From: Gammaproteobacteria bacterium
GTDB taxonomy: Bacteria > Pseudomonadota > Gammaproteobacteria > Steroidobacterales > Steroidobacteraceae
Length of the DNA: 55,224 bases
NCBI GenBank assembly: GCA_003132025.1
Contig: PKWJ01000018.1
Location: 298,115 to 353,338, forward strand
Direction of reading: 5' to 3'
Shown: in pieces, positions 44,025-49,190 of the stretch
Numbering within the stretch: the stretch's first letter is position 1
Layout of the letters: every line of letters begins with the position of its first letter
Made by a program: the position numbers and the translations under genes
The notes under the pieces: generated by a model
Told to the model about the DNA's origin: nothing
The model's input: the letters and a program-made list of their open reading frames with translations, nothing else
Database searches by the model: none

Positions 44025-44852
44025 TCAGCCGGGATTGAGCTTGCTGGCCGCCAGCGCATGCGCCTGGTCGGAGTCGGGGAATTCCTGCCCCAGACGCGCC
44101 CCGTAGCGCTGCTGCGCGCCGGCGTCGTTCTGCGCCTGCGCAATGCGGTAGGCCAGCAACAGCAGGTCGGGCGTGGACGGATTGGTCAGCAGGAACACGT
44201 CGATGCGGAAGCGCGCATCGGCAAGCTTCTGCTGCTGGAAATCCAGATCCGACGCCTGGTACACCGCTTCGGAATAAGCCGGGTTGGCACGCAACGCGCG
44301 CGCGAAGCGCTGCGCGGCATCGGCATCACGATGCACCCCACGCATGCACACCCCGGCATTGGTGTAGGCCGCCCAGGGCGTTGGGTAGAGCGGATTGGTC
44401 GCGGCCTCTTCGAAATAGCGCACGCCCTCGTCGGCGCGTCCGTGGCTGCACAGGAACACCGCATAATTGTTCAACATCGCCGGATCATGCGAATCCAGAT
44501 CGAGCGCGGTGCGATATTCCTTGTCGGCTTCCTTATCCTTGCCCAGGCGCTCATCCAGCAGCGCCATCGCGCCGTGAATCTCCGGATTGTGCGGATCCTG
44601 GCTGCGCGCGCGCTCCAGCTTCTCCTTGGAGATCGGCAGGTTCCCCTCCCGCAGGTAACCGAGACCGAGCTGCATGTTGATCTTGGCCGCGGCCTGGATC
44701 CTGCTCTCGTTGCTGCTGTAGCTGCCGCTGCTGCCGCTGTTGATGTTGCCGGCGCCGTTGTTGCCGTTATAGACGGCGCTGTTGACGGTTGGCGTATGGC
44801 TGCACGCGCTCAGCATAAGGCTTAGCCACAGGCACCCCAGGCGGCAGTTCAT
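44025..44852 (-). CDS. pilW: Type IV pilus assembly lipoprotein PilW/PilF
   Basis: PilW (PilF) is the pilotin that carries the secretin PilQ to the outer membrane. The 275-residue product has a lipoprotein signal (LSLMLSAC, Cys17), a Ser/Gly/Asn-rich linker and about six TPR repeats (INMQLGLGYLREGNLPISKEKLERA; PEIHGAMALLDERLGKDKEADKEYRTALDLD; NNYAVFLCSHGRADEGVRYFEEA). It overlaps rlmN by 4 bp. The rlmN-pilF-rodZ order is as in Pseudomonas. Other pilus genes are not in the window. Confidence 0.93.
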   Translation of the reverse strand: MNCRLGCLWLSLMLSACSHTPTVNSAVYNGNNGAGNINSGSSGSYSSNESRIQAAAKINMQLGLGYLREGNLPISKEKLERARSQDPHNPEIHGAMALLDERLGKDKEADKEYRTALDLDSHDPAMLNNYAVFLCSHGRADEGVRYFEEAATNPLYPTPWAAYTNAGVCMRGVHRDADAAQRFARALRANPAYSEAVYQASDLDFQQQKLADARFRIDVFLLTNPSTPDLLLLAYRIAQAQNDAGAQQRYGARLGQEFPDSDQAHALAASKLNPG

Positions 44853-46003
44853 GCGTCGACTCCACCGGCCGCGCGCGTCCGCGCCGCCTCCACCCTGCTG
44901 CCCAGGCGCACCACGGTGCGATCGGTGACGCGGCCCACCAGCTGGCCGCAGGCGGCGTCGATATCATCGCCGCGCGTGCGCCGTACCGTTGCCATCACGC
45001 CCCCGCGCAGCAGCAGGTCGCGAAACTGGCCAATGGCGGCCTCGCTCGAACGCCGGAACTGGGTGCCATGATATGGATTGAACGGGATCAAATTCACCTT
45101 GGCCGGATGTCCGGTAAGCAACCGCGCCAGGGCGCGCGCCTGCGCCGGGGAATCGTTCACGCCGTCGAGCATCACGTATTCGAAGGTGACGCTGCGGCCA
45201 TTCTGTTCGTCGATGTAGTGCCAGCAGGCCTCGAGCAGCTCGGCGATCGGGTGCAGCCGGTTGATCGGCACCAGCTGGCTGCGCAGCTCGTCGTCCGGCG
45301 CGTGCAGCGACACCGCCAGCGCGACGTTGATTTCCTGCGCCAGGCGGTAGATCTGCGGCGCCAGGCCCGAAGTCGACAGCGTGACGCGCCGGCGTGAGAG
45401 ATCGAACCCCAGGTCATCGAGGAAAATCCGCAGCGCCGGAATCACGTTGCGGAAATTGGCCAGCGGCTCACCCATGCCCATCAGCACCACGTTGGTGATG
45501 ATGCGATCGCCGCCGGGCTGAAATCCCAATTCGCGCTTCGCCAGCCACACCTGGCCGACGATCTCGGCGCTGGAGAGGTTACGGTTGAAGCCCTGCTGGG
45601 CAGTGGCGCAGAACGCGCAGTCGAGCGCGCAGCCGACCTGCGAGGAAATGCACAACGTGCCACGATCGGCCTCCGGTATGTACACCATCTCGAACGCCTG
45701 GGTCTGATCGGCGCGCAGCAGCCACTTGCGCGTGCCGTCGCTGGCGCGCTGCTCGGTGACGATCTCGGGCAAGGTGATCGCGGCACGCTCGGCCAGCTGC
45801 CCGCGAAAATCGCGCGCCAGGTTGCTCATGTCCTCGAAGCGATCGCAACCGCGCTTGTACAGCCAGTTCATCAGCTGGCGCGCGCGAAACGGCTTTGCGC
45901 CCAGCCCGGCGCAGAACGCTTCCAGCTCGGCCCGCGGCAATCCCAAAAGGTTGACGCGGCCCCCAGCGTTGTCTGTGGTCTCACCCGCGCCGATGGCCGT
46001 CAT
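44849..46003 (-). CDS. rlmN: 23S rRNA/tRNA adenine-C2 methyltransferase RlmN
   Basis: RlmN is a radical-SAM enzyme that methylates A2503 of 23S rRNA and A37 of some tRNAs. The 384-residue protein has the CxxxCxxC cluster motif at Cys125, Cys129 and Cys132 (GCALDCAFCATAQQGF), the methyl-carrying cysteine in the C-terminal AACGQL, and the SAM-binding GMGEPLANF. The extra cysteine before the cluster (LCISSQ, Cys118) is also in place. It lies 20 bp after ndk and overlaps pilW by 4 bp. Confidence 0.97.
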   Translation of the reverse strand: MTAIGAGETTDNAGGRVNLLGLPRAELEAFCAGLGAKPFRARQLMNWLYKRGCDRFEDMSNLARDFRGQLAERAAITLPEIVTEQRASDGTRKWLLRADQTQAFEMVYIPEADRGTLCISSQVGCALDCAFCATAQQGFNRNLSSAEIVGQVWLAKRELGFQPGGDRIITNVVLMGMGEPLANFRNVIPALRIFLDDLGFDLSRRRVTLSTSGLAPQIYRLAQEINVALAVSLHAPDDELRSQLVPINRLHPIAELLEACWHYIDEQNGRSVTFEYVMLDGVNDSPAQARALARLLTGHPAKVNLIPFNPYHGTQFRRSSEAAIGQFRDLLLRGGVMATVRRTRGDDIDAACGQLVGRVTDRTVVRLGSRVEAARTRAAGGVDA

Positions 46004-46023: not shown

Positions 46024-46452
46024 TCAGGTGCGCGGGCAGATCTCCGTCGCGCTGAAGAAAAACGCGATCTCGCCGGCCGCGGTGGCCGGGGAATCCGAGC
46101 CATGCACTACGTTCTCCTCGATACTGTGCGCAAGATCGGCGCGGATGGTGCCCGGGGCGGCTTTTTTCGGATCGGTGGCACCCATCAGGTCGCGGTGCCT
46201 GGCGATCGAACCGTCGCCTTCCAGCACCTGCGCCATCACCGGACCCGAGCTCATGTAACGTACCAGGTCGCGGTAGAACGGCCGCTCGCGATGCACCTGG
46301 TAGAACAGTTCCGCCTGCTGCTGCGACAGCCGCAGCATGCGCGCGGCGATGATATGCAGCCCCGCGCTCTCGAACCGGCGATAGACCTCGCCTATCAGAT
46401 TGCGGGCCACGCCGTCGGGCTTGACGATGGAAAGGGTGCGCTCGACCGCCAT
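46024..46452 (-). CDS. ndk: Nucleoside-diphosphate kinase
   Basis: Ndk balances NTP and dNTP pools through a phosphohistidine. The 142-residue product shows [61 protein letters not shown] and the active-site His in [10 protein letters not shown]. It has a good ribosome-binding site (GGAGG 4-5 bp before the ATG) and its own promoter, described separately. In Pseudomonas-like relatives ndk follows the full isc operon. Confidence 0.97.
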
Positions 46453-46519: not shown

Positions 46520-46846
46520 TCAGGCGGTAGTAAAGCTCTCGCCGCAGCCGCATTCGCCGGCAACGTTCGGATTCTCGAACCGGAAGCTCTCGTTCAGGCC
46601 GGAACGCACCAGGTCGATGCGGGTGCCGTCGATCGCCGCCAGGCTCGCCGGATCGACGTACACCTTGACACCGGAGCTGTCGAAAACGAGGTCATCCGGG
46701 CGAACTTCGTCGGCGTAATCAACGACGTAGCTATAGCCGGAGCAGCCGCTAGCCTTGATGGCAAGGCGCAGCCCCAGCCCCCGGCCACGGGTGGCAATAC
46801 GGCTGCGGATGCGCTCGGCTGCTGATTCGGTTAAGGAAATGGCCAT
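46520..46846 (-). CDS. iscA: Iron-sulfur cluster assembly protein IscA
   Basis: The 108-residue A-type carrier has the three conserved cysteines (SGCSGYSYVV and ECGCGESF) and is close in sequence to Escherichia IscA along its whole length (ISLTESAAERIRSRIATRGRGLGLRLAIKASGCSG ... ENPNVAGECGCGESF). A-type proteins pass clusters from the scaffold to target apoproteins. A TAAAAT box at 46873-46868 and a CTGGAG ribosome-binding sequence precede the ATG. It lies downstream of the IscU-like gene and upstream of ndk; hscB, hscA, fdx and iscX, normally between, are absent. Confidence 0.94.
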   Translation of the reverse strand: MAISLTESAAERIRSRIATRGRGLGLRLAIKASGCSGYSYVVDYADEVRPDDLVFDSSGVKVYVDPASLAAIDGTRIDLVRSGLNESFRFENPNVAGECGCGESFTTA

Positions 46847-46873
46847 CGTTGAGTCTCCAGTGCCTTCATTTTA

Positions 46874-47266
46874 CTACGAATCGGTCACCGATTTGTCAGC
46901 CGCGGCTAAAGCTGCGACGAGTGCATCCTCGACCACCAGCAGCCTTCCTAACCGCGCCTGCGGGATCTGCAGCTGCCGCGCCCAGTCGGCGGGAGCGCCG
47001 AGCGAACCCCGGTCAGCGCTTTCCAGCCGCGTAGCCAGCCATTCGCAGGCCGCGAGCGTGTACGGGCAGCCGTAGGCCCGGTAGCGCGCCCGCAGTACGC
47101 GCTGACCGCTCAGTTCCAGCATGAAGCGCACCCGAGTGCCGCGCTGCTCGCGCCCGGCTTCACCGTACACCACCGGCAGCGTGCCGGCCGGCTCGCCGGC
47201 GTGGGATAGCGCGCCGAACAGCCGGCGCACCTCGGGTCCCAGCGGATCTTCGAGGCTCGCGTTCAC
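46874..47266 (-). CDS. IscU/NifU-N-like protein lacking most cluster ligands
   Basis: The 130-residue product occupies the iscU position. Its middle (RVLRARYRAYGCPYTLAACEWLATRLE) and end (ARLGRLLVVEDALVAALA) follow the IscU fold outline. Of the three cluster-binding cysteines of IscU, only the second is kept (Cys67 in YGCPY). The first loop reads GEPAGTLPVVYGEAG with no Cys or Asp of the usual kind, and the third, normally His-Cys before the last helix, is replaced by Gly-Arg. Another Cys is at 74. It cannot form the canonical scaffold site unaided. GTG start at 47266, overlapping iscS by 4 bp. Confidence 0.75.
   Translation of the reverse strand: MNASLEDPLGPEVRRLFGALSHAGEPAGTLPVVYGEAGREQRGTRVRFMLELSGQRVLRARYRAYGCPYTLAACEWLATRLESADRGSLGAPADWARQLQIPQARLGRLLVVEDALVAALAAADKSVTDS
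46879..46893. promoter_or_regulatory. Perfect 7-1-7 palindrome AATCGGT-C-ACCGATT upstream of iscA
   Basis: The palindrome lies in the last codons of the IscU-like gene, directly upstream of the TAAAAT box of iscA and thus across a would-be promoter spacer. It does not resemble the known IscR type 1 or type 2 consensus. It may be an operator for an unidentified regulator of iscA. Confidence 0.45.
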
Positions 47267-48450
47267 GGTGCCGCCGCCCGCAGCCGCCGCACCTCGCGCG
47301 TCACGGCGGCGATCGCCAAGTCGATATCCTGCTCGCTGCTGTAGCGGCCGAGGCTGAATCGCAGCGCACTTTGCGCCAGTTCGGTGTCACGGCCCAGTGC
47401 CCGCAGCACGTAGGAGGGCTCATCGCTGTCGGAGCTGCAGGCCGAGCCGGTCGACAGCGACAGTTCGGTCAGTCCCATCAACAGGCTCTCGCCCTCGATG
47501 CCGGTGAAGGACACATTCAGGATCCCGGGCACGCGCTGCGTGGGATGGCCGTTGAGCAGGACGCCTCCGATCGCGTTCAGGCCCTGCCATAGCCGCGCGC
47601 GCAGCCGCTCGCAGTGCTCGGCGTCCGCGCGCCAGGCAGCCGCGGCCAGCTCGCAGGCCAGGCCGAAGCCGACGATCTGGTGTACTGCCAGCGTGCCGGA
47701 ACGCAGGCCCCGTTCGTGCCCGCCGCCGAACACCAATGGCTGCAGCGATGCGCGCCGCGCGGGCGCGAAGTACAACGCGCCGATGCCCTTGGGACCATAG
47801 AGTTTGTGCGCGGTGAACGACAGCAGGTCGCACTGCAGGCGCTCGACATCCAGCGCCACCTTGCCGGCGCTCTGTGCCGCATCCACGTGCAGCGGCACCG
47901 CGCGCTCGTGACAGATGGCGGCGATGGCCTCGATGTCCTGCAGCACGCCGATCTCGTTGTTGGCGTGCATGATCGACACCAGTACCGTGTCGTCGCGCAG
48001 CGCCTCGCGCACCAGTTGCGGTGCGATCAGACCCTGGTGGTCGGTGTCCAGATAGCTCACCTGGAAACCCTCGTGTTCCAGCCGGCGGCACGGATCGAGC
48101 ACCGACTTGTGCTCGGTGCGTGCGGTGACCAGGTGGCGGCCGGGATGGCGACCGCGCTTGGCGGCGGCGCGCGCGCTGCCGAGAATCGCAAGGTTATTCG
48201 ACTCGGTTGCGCCCGAGGTCCACACCAGCTGCTGCGGCGGCGCATTGATCAGAGCGGCGGCCTGCGCCCGCGCATGTTCCACGCGCGCCCGCGCCAGCCT
48301 GCCATGCTGATGCATCGAGGACGGATTACCGAACACGCCCTCGCGCGTCAGGCACTCGCCCATCGCCGCCGCCACCCGCGGATCGGCCGGAGAGGTGGCG
48401 GCGTAGTCGAGATATATCGGTTCCTGAGCGTTCACCGGTGTGCCTCTCAT
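47263..48450 (-). CDS. iscS: Cysteine desulfurase IscS
   Basis: IscS removes sulfur from cysteine to supply iron-sulfur and tRNA thiolation pathways. The 395-residue PLP enzyme has YLDYAATSPADPRV, TSGATESNNLAILG, His114 in RTEHKSV, MHANNEIGVLQDI, the PLP lysine Lys216 in FTAHKLYGPKG, and the sulfur-carrying Cys338 in STGSACSSDSDEPSYVLRALG. After LRFSLGRY and about 25 more residues it stops at LRAAAP. The final 18-20 residues of Escherichia IscS, which contact IscU, are missing. The start at 48450 overlaps the trmJ stop by 4 bp. Confidence 0.94.
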   Translation of the reverse strand: MRGTPVNAQEPIYLDYAATSPADPRVAAAMGECLTREGVFGNPSSMHQHGRLARARVEHARAQAAALINAPPQQLVWTSGATESNNLAILGSARAAAKRGRHPGRHLVTARTEHKSVLDPCRRLEHEGFQVSYLDTDHQGLIAPQLVREALRDDTVLVSIMHANNEIGVLQDIEAIAAICHERAVPLHVDAAQSAGKVALDVERLQCDLLSFTAHKLYGPKGIGALYFAPARRASLQPLVFGGGHERGLRSGTLAVHQIVGFGLACELAAAAWRADAEHCERLRARLWQGLNAIGGVLLNGHPTQRVPGILNVSFTGIEGESLLMGLTELSLSTGSACSSDSDEPSYVLRALGRDTELAQSALRFSLGRYSSEQDIDLAIAAVTREVRRLRAAAP

Positions 48451-49190
48451 GAGTCCTGGCCAGCGCGCCGCCGGCGCTGCTGCACCGCTGTCAGGATGCC
48501 ACGCAGGATATTGACCTCGTTGGCGTCCGGCTCGGCGCGCTGCAACAGCCGCCGGATGCGTTTCATCAGGTGTCCGCCGCTCTGGGTGCGATCGCGAAAG
48601 TCGATCTCCTCCAGCACCGTGGCCAGGTGCTGGTACAGATGATCCAGCTCGGCCGGCGTCGCCAGCGGTGCGGCGCGTGCCTCGATGCGCGCTTCCTGCG
48701 GCGGCGCGAGCCGCGCACGCAGGATTTCGTAGGCGACGATCTGCACCGCCATCGCGATGTTGAGCGACGCGTAGGCCGGATTGGCCGGTATACGCAGCAG
48801 CGCATGCGCATAGCGCAGCTCCTCGTTGGTCAGCCCGGCGCGTTCGGAGCCGAACATGATGGCCACCGGCGCGTGTTCGGCCTCGGCCACCGCGCGGCAA
48901 GCGGCCTCGCGCACATCGAACACGCGAAAATACTGGTCGCGTTCGCGGCTGGTGGTCGCCAGCACCAGCCCGCAGCCCTGCAGTGCGGCCGCAAGGTCGG
49001 CCTCGACCCGCGCGCCCGACAGCAGTTCCACCGCGCCGGAGGCGCGGGCGCTGGCCTCCGGATGCGGGAACAGCTTCGGCCGCACCAGCACCAGATCTTC
49101 GAGCTGCATGTTCTTGAGCGCGCGCGCCACCGCACCGATGTTGCCGGGATGCGAGGTTTCGACCAGGACGATGCGAATTGGACAGGGCAC
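48447..49190 (-). CDS. trmJ: tRNA (cytidine/uridine-2'-O)-methyltransferase TrmJ
   Basis: TrmJ is a SPOUT methyltransferase acting on position 32 of several tRNAs. The 247-residue product has the knot motifs: IRIVLVETSHPGNIGAVARALKNMQLEDLVLVRP at the start, MFGSERAGLTNEEL in the middle and the ASLNIAMAVQIVAYEI segment. A C-terminal helical extension follows. It starts with a GTG at 49190 and is divergent from suhB (41 bp apart). In Pseudomonas, trmJ is followed by cysE and iscR; both are missing here. Confidence 0.95.
   Translation of the reverse strand: MPCPIRIVLVETSHPGNIGAVARALKNMQLEDLVLVRPKLFPHPEASARASGAVELLSGARVEADLAAALQGCGLVLATTSRERDQYFRVFDVREAACRAVAEAEHAPVAIMFGSERAGLTNEELRYAHALLRIPANPAYASLNIAMAVQIVAYEILRARLAPPQEARIEARAAPLATPAELDHLYQHLATVLEEIDFRDRTQSGGHLMKRIRRLLQRAEPDANEVNILRGILTAVQQRRRRAGQDS

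Follow-up and report, generated by a model that had tools for sequence, protein, structure and literature searches.

Why would a bacterium retain, next to the cysteine desulfurase gene iscS, a gene for an IscU-like protein in which a single cysteine of the cluster-binding site is left? The question is raised by a 55,224-nucleotide stretch of the genome of a gammaproteobacterium of the order Steroidobacterales (assembly GCA_003132025.1, contig PKWJ01000018.1, positions 298,115 to 353,338), hereinafter the window, in which iscS (47263..48450, minus strand) is followed by a gene for a 130-amino-acid IscU-like protein with a GTG start, denoted IscU* here (46874..47266, minus strand). IscU is regarded as the scaffold of iron-sulfur (Fe-S) cluster assembly, a function from which whatever it does to IscS can be disentangled only with difficulty. 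The comparisons described below suggest, with a probability of roughly 0.7, that IscU* was once a scaffold but now serves IscS as a dedicated subunit without scaffold function and guides sulfur outside cluster assembly; this estimate overlaps with those for a persulfide relay and for a structural or allosteric role, which are two ways such a subunit could work.

The relationship of IscU* to known families is distant but clear. The Pfam NifU_N model yields 19 bits, below its cut-off of 22, the TIGR01999 (iscU) model yields 12.6 bits with a cut-off of 192.4, and there is no match at E <= 1 to TIGR01994 (SufU) or to the Pfam SufE and TusA families. In a search of solved structures, a profile of the IscU* family aligns with E. 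coli IscU over its full length (2kqk_A, profile positions 2-120, E 1.6e-15) and SufU far more weakly (E 2.3e-5), so that IscU* is a homologue of IscU, nearer by profile to IscU than to SufU; an earlier sequence-only reading of this DNA had called the protein IscU-like, and the profile match bears this out. At the positions of E. coli IscU C37, D39, C63, H105 and C106, the residues of the window protein are R, T, C, G and R, respectively, the sole survivor being Cys67 (codon 47066..47068, minus strand; numbering begins at the GTG at 47266), the equivalent of Cys63. The protein lacks the combination of three Cys (37, 63 and 106) and Asp39 that defines the IscU scaffold, as well as LPPVK, the motif by which IscU binds HscA, and in total contains two Cys and one His, with Tyr at position 65. 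The ligand losses noted in the sequence-only reading, namely two of three cluster cysteines and the His-Cys site, are thereby confirmed, and a function of IscU* as a [2Fe-2S] scaffold, judged from these residues, is very unlikely; that reading, too, had called it unlikely.

The window genome (an assembly of 4.2 Mb spread over 61 contigs, with 97.04% completeness and 4.67% contamination) would build its clusters by SUF (sufB-C-D-S-U-T). The SUF system that the sequence-only reading had placed elsewhere in the genome is indeed there, as a complete operon of a regulator (TIGR02944), sufB, sufC, sufD, sufS, sufU and sufT, and the only other NifU_N match in the genome is the SufU encoded next to sufS, which keeps its three Cys. 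A second isc operon with a canonical IscU, which would have refuted that reading, was not found in this assembly, nor was any other IscU. HscB and CyaY were not found genome-wide, nor was an isc-type Fdx at E 1e-20; iscX, iscR and hscA were not searched for beyond the locus, where iscR, hscBA, fdx and iscX are all missing. TusA and ThiI were likewise not found in the genome, and MnmA is present (380 bits).

This combination recurs in other genomes. A sample of 32 hand-chosen genomes includes 22 with IscU* and without canonical IscU (IscU*-only) and nine with canonical IscU, the latter taken from the top of the class-wide TIGR01999 search. In the 22 IscU*-only genomes, HscB, Fdx and CyaY each occur in none, SUF in 21, TusA over the cut-off in nine and MnmA in 20; in the nine canonical genomes, HscB, Fdx, TusA and MnmA occur in all nine, CyaY in six and SUF in none. 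The absence of SUF from the canonical set is no general contrast because the control, E. coli, has both ISC and SUF. The lone SUF-less genome among the 22 is 77% complete, and a genome of this set (G234) gives three matches to TIGR01999, the best with E 4.5e-38, possibly a NifU. The two types can apparently meet in one cell: in one genome (G346), a first contig carries the isc genes iscS to iscX and a second a trmJ-linked IscS-IscU* fusion (loci L147 and L148), and SUF is present as well, although this assembly consists of about 90 contigs and one of the two could be mis-binned.

IscU* is by no means a peculiarity of the window, and the feature is larger than the sequence-only reading envisaged, being shared by the order and by other families and often forming part of a fusion protein. 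Of 98 genomes of the order, that of the window among them, 94 contain a match at E <= 0.01, at least one of which is a chance match (L090 of G014 showed no IscU* on inspection); the loci drawn from this search represent its best matches only. Ligand-poor versions were also found at 14 loci in 12 further families of the class. In a class sample of 369 genomes, IscU* sequences were inspected in 20, a lower bound because many other genomes were not inspected; IscU above the TIGR01999 cut-off occurs in 152 of the 369.

Ligands were counted in 61 loci, 47 from the order and the 14 from other families. The 39 loci from a motif scan (A[YRW]GCP[HY]TLA) were kept out of the Cys counts because the scan selected for that very Cys motif; two further rows were dropped, one from the same genome as another locus (L030, with L080) and one with a split domain (L019), and a locus that stayed outside the count although it duplicates no other (L097 of G017) retains C63 alone. 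In the order, C37 and D39 are retained in none of the 47 loci, C63 in 45, H105 in one and C106 in two; in the other families, the respective numbers, out of 14, are C37 0, D39 3, C63 6, H105 5 and C106 5. Not a single locus among the 61 has all three ligand Cys, three have two, 52 have one and six have none. Families differ in the ligands they keep, which makes a common, concealed substitute for the cluster site less plausible. The equivalent of Cys67 was also identified by eye in 19 of 20 further loci, one of which (G023) is from a genome also represented among the 47. Cys-less versions occur at two loci of the order (L082 and L084), at four of other families (L103, L105, L106 and L109) and at L146, and another, fused to IscS, is found even in the window's own genus (L140 of G006). 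Position 64 in E. coli numbering, Gly in canonical IscU, is Pro in all 47 loci of the order and in 12 of the 14 others (59/61), and so is possibly diagnostic of the ligand-poor family.

What IscU* does is suggested in part by its company. Among 72 distinct loci, IscS is encoded in the same open reading frame or locus in all 72, iscA in 69, ndk in 67, rlmN in 66 and trmJ in 65, with all five neighbours present together in 59, some loci stopping at contig ends. In 37 of the 72, IscU* shares one open frame with IscS, joined to the IscS C-terminus directly or through a linker; among the further loci, fusions account for seven of 20, or five of 18 once two genomes already counted are removed, which brings the overall tally to 42 of 90 distinct loci, the 39 loci from the motif-selected scan included. 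The window itself has no fusion, only a four-nucleotide overlap of iscS and iscU*. Fusions of this kind speak strongly for joint action of the two proteins. Genetic linkage and fusion give good support to a role of IscU* as an IscS subunit, and residue conservation adds partial support; the suggestion in the sequence-only reading that the protein modulates IscS fits well with these data, action on IscS being most likely. In two species of one genus, the frame extends further, TrmJ, IscS and IscU* making up a single chain of 799 amino acids in G028 (L091, 1520-3916) and 809 in G047 (L126), which places a tRNA methyltransferase in covalent linkage with a desulfurase.

The desulfurase that accompanies IscU* has kept its catalytic residues. 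The active-site Cys328, the pyridoxal phosphate Lys206 and His104 are all retained in the window IscS, and the same three residues are found in 45 of 45 IscS rows of the order (the window included) and 14 of 14 rows from other families; the window IscS reaches 485 bits with the IscS equivalog model, whose cut-off is 643, and has a short C-terminus. IscU* itself is not drifting: the ratio of nonsynonymous to synonymous substitution rates (dN/dS, NG86) lies between 0.14 and 0.43 in 14 pairs, some of them interdependent, and is lower for IscS than for IscU* in 12 of 13 comparable pairs. IscU* is under purifying selection.

Part of the surface that would face IscS is conserved. In the E. coli complex, the contacts of IscU to IscS are Tyr3, Tyr11, Gly38, Val40, Lys42, Lys59-Gly64 and Lys103, and a charge reversal at Lys103 abolished binding (PMC2854127). 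The eleven IscS-facing positions of IscU*, with Cys63 excluded, have a mean entropy of 1.01 vs 1.75 overall (p 0.0017 by random draws), and Lys103 is K or R in 45 of 47 loci of the order and 11 of 14 others. The HscA motif has been lost in the order, with P101 in 7/47 and V102 in 0/47. On the IscS side, several residues of the IscU site are kept in most of the 45 rows of the order (E311 in 44, L313 in 45, R379 in 40 and R381 in 42). Sites mapped in E. coli IscS for other partners include Trp45 and Glu49 for TusA and Arg220 and Arg225 for CyaY and IscX (PMC2854127); Trp45 is Arg in 35 of 45 order rows, R220 is retained in 11 and R225 in 12, and the window IscS has Arg at Trp45 and Ala at Glu49.

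Several observations weigh against an IscS-bound, sulfur-guiding IscU*, at least in its simplest form. The interface signal rests on the strand 59-64 and Lys103, given that p weakens to 0.03 without positions 62 and 64, to 0.08 without 59-64 and to 0.23 without 59-64 and 103. K42 is K or R in only 32/47 loci of the order and 4/14 others, Y3 is aromatic in 16/46, and residues 1-12 of E. coli IscU are required for binding to IscS (PMC2854127). Across the order, most of IscS 386-391, the helix end that contacts IscU, is either missing from the alignment or replaced, and removal of 374/376-404 from E. coli IscS leaves weak binding of IscU or none (PMC2854127), so the docking of IscU* must differ in part; the junction of the IscS-IscU* fusions lies near these same residues. 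Other residues of the partner sites are mostly retained (R223 in 36/45, R237 in 33/45 and R340 in 42/45), and no link was found between the loss of IscS Trp45 and the presence of a TusA gene. One genome (G355) breaks the linkage: no IscS was found in the roughly 2.9 kb upstream of its Cys-less IscU* (L146, 2908-3279) or in the 1.7 kb downstream. A relay through Cys67, moreover, cannot be universal, as the Cys-less versions show.

How, then, could such a subunit act? IscU* would sit on IscS at the IscU site, kept beside the active-site Cys by gene overlap in the window or, at about half of the loci, by being part of the same chain, and most likely would set IscS activity and divert persulfide from Fe-S assembly towards whichever acceptors remain. 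An effect of this kind has a precedent in E. coli, where IscU competes with TusA for IscS and both alter its activity (PMC11302665). Given the lack of a detectable TusA or ThiI, the acceptor in the window genome is likely to be MnmA, which makes tRNA 2-thiouridine. The sequence-only reading had mentioned tRNA thiolation as a possible destination of the sulfur; the E. coli route to it finds no support here, TusA delivery being rejected for the window genome for want of a detectable TusA, and the IscS substitutions at Trp45 and Glu49 pointing the same way, but a direct or IscU*-relayed transfer to the MnmA that is present could take its place. Delivery to MnmA, either direct or via Cys67, is the leading, although unproven, route, as far as gene content can suggest one.

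Two mechanisms fit a subunit of this type about equally well, each falling somewhat short of an even chance as the main function. Under the first, IscU* is a persulfide relay: Cys67 takes up the sulfur that IscS releases and delivers it to MnmA in place of the TusA-TusBCD-TusE chain, much as SufU serves SufS. Cys67, which may carry persulfide in most of the order, is near-invariant there, TusA was detected in one of eight genomes of the order, MnmA is nearly ubiquitous in the IscU*-only set, and Cys63 of IscU was ranked second, after Cys37, as the likely sulfur acceptor (PMC2854127). This scheme has to accommodate the Cys-less versions listed above, one of them from the window's genus, the nine IscU*-only genomes with TusA over the cut-off, and Bacillus subtilis, where tRNA thiolation proceeds with a desulfurase and MnmA alone and no carrier in between (PMC11784392, PMC5372739). 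Under the second, IscU* is purely structural or allosteric, keeping the catalytic loop of IscS active or shielded and blocking other partners without passing any sulfur, which would explain the persistence of Cys-less versions, some fused to IscS (L082 and L140), and would agree with the change in IscS activity upon binding of E. coli IscU, but leaves the near-invariant Cys67 of the order unexplained. We infer that the versions of IscU* are united in one role, that of a partner which holds IscS and tunes it.

A scaffold in disguise, with the missing ligands supplied by other residues, by IscS or by IscA, is improbable. A three-Cys IscA adjoins, and within the order position 65 is His in 27/47 loci and position 70 is Cys in 21/47; the window protein, with its two Cys, one His and Tyr at 65, offers little to rebuild a site from, no Cys or His column besides C63 reaches 60% in the order, HscB and Fdx were not found, and the retained ligands vary by family. 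A scaffold with rebuilt ligands was accordingly rejected on the residue content of the window protein and the lack of a further well-conserved Cys/His column. Least probable of all is a functionless, decaying remnant of a lost isc operon, for although the partner genes were not found and the ligands vary, a pseudogene was rejected on the order-wide presence and the dN/dS values, and repeated fusion and near-invariant residues speak against decay as well.

In an unrooted tree of IscS, obtained by a quick search, the 12 canonical rows form one side of a branch (SH-aLRT 96), these rows being an uneven sample from among the best matches of one search plus E. coli; the sequences are compatible with a single origin of IscU* as well as with several. 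A more ambitious version of the proposal is doubtful at present: that IscS-IscU* constitutes a distinct desulfurase system in many SUF-using Gammaproteobacteria, that it replaces the TusA relay to MnmA, that the TrmJ fusion marks a tRNA-modifying complex, and that an old, cluster-independent role in steering IscS persists in canonical IscU.

Comparison with known systems brings out what may be new here. Like canonical IscU, IscU* is homologous over the full length, adjoins iscS and iscA and shares part of the IscS-facing positions; unlike it, IscU* lacks C37, D39, H105, C106 and LPPVK, is not accompanied by detectable HscB, isc-type Fdx or CyaY, and is often fused to IscS. SufE has a single reactive Cys that takes persulfide from a desulfurase, and TusA also accepts persulfide from one (PMC2854127), a possible parallel to Cys67, which is, however, not universal in IscU*. 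SufU, an IscU homologue that functions as a zinc-dependent sulfur-transfer partner of SufS and not as a scaffold (PMC8593673), offers a parallel to the desulfurase-partner role proposed for IscU*, but it pairs with SufS and retains the three Cys, and the window genome carries a SufU of its own. In Mycobacterium tuberculosis, an isolated iscS lies beside a complete SUF system (PMC10848736), so that ISC is likewise reduced around IscS in a SUF-using cell; there, iscS alone is left, whereas here an IscU-derived companion is retained, often fused. No description of a ligand-poor or IscS-fused IscU was found in the literature searched, with most subscription journals and bioRxiv outside the search.

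Evolution seems to have separated the two roles of IscU, with the cluster site gone and the partnership with IscS kept, often in one chain. Many SUF-using environmental bacteria appear to keep a stripped-down scaffold that probably is unable to hold a cluster, which suggests a second job for the scaffold, and with these proteins one could ask directly if IscU steers sulfur independently of clusters. The fusions make natural single-chain IscS-IscU complexes available for structural work, and a TusA-free route of tRNA thiolation might operate in a large environmental group. For annotation, an IscU-like gene beside iscS cannot be taken as a sign of a working ISC system.

The locus itself is compact, with the gene order trmJ-iscS-iscU*-iscA-ndk-rlmN, all on the minus strand. 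The stop codon of trmJ (48447..49190), the tRNA methyltransferase gene fused to IscS-IscU* in two relatives, overlaps, in the sequence ATGA, the ATG that is taken as the start of iscS, the iscS stop overlaps the iscU* start in GTGA, and 27 nucleotides separate iscU* from iscA (46520..46846), so that the set from trmJ to iscA looks translationally coupled. IscA is an A-type carrier by its model matches, slightly under the equivalog cut-offs, with three Cys in the sequence. The conserved downstream neighbours are ndk (46024..46452) and rlmN (44849..46003), both identified from open reading frames and the loci of relatives. The gap between iscA and ndk is only 67 nucleotides and thus holds no hscB, hscA, fdx or iscX, and the reduced set of iscS, an IscU-like gene and iscA, as well as its position, had been described correctly from the letters.

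Two minor observations concern sequences met along the way. At three loci (L022, L023 and L030), the IscU* match crosses an in-frame TGA or TAG, perhaps where the match runs past the end of the gene. The SufS of the window genome (L003, 5085-6350) scores 643 bits against the model of the family 2A encapsulin cargo desulfurase, under the cut-off of 800.

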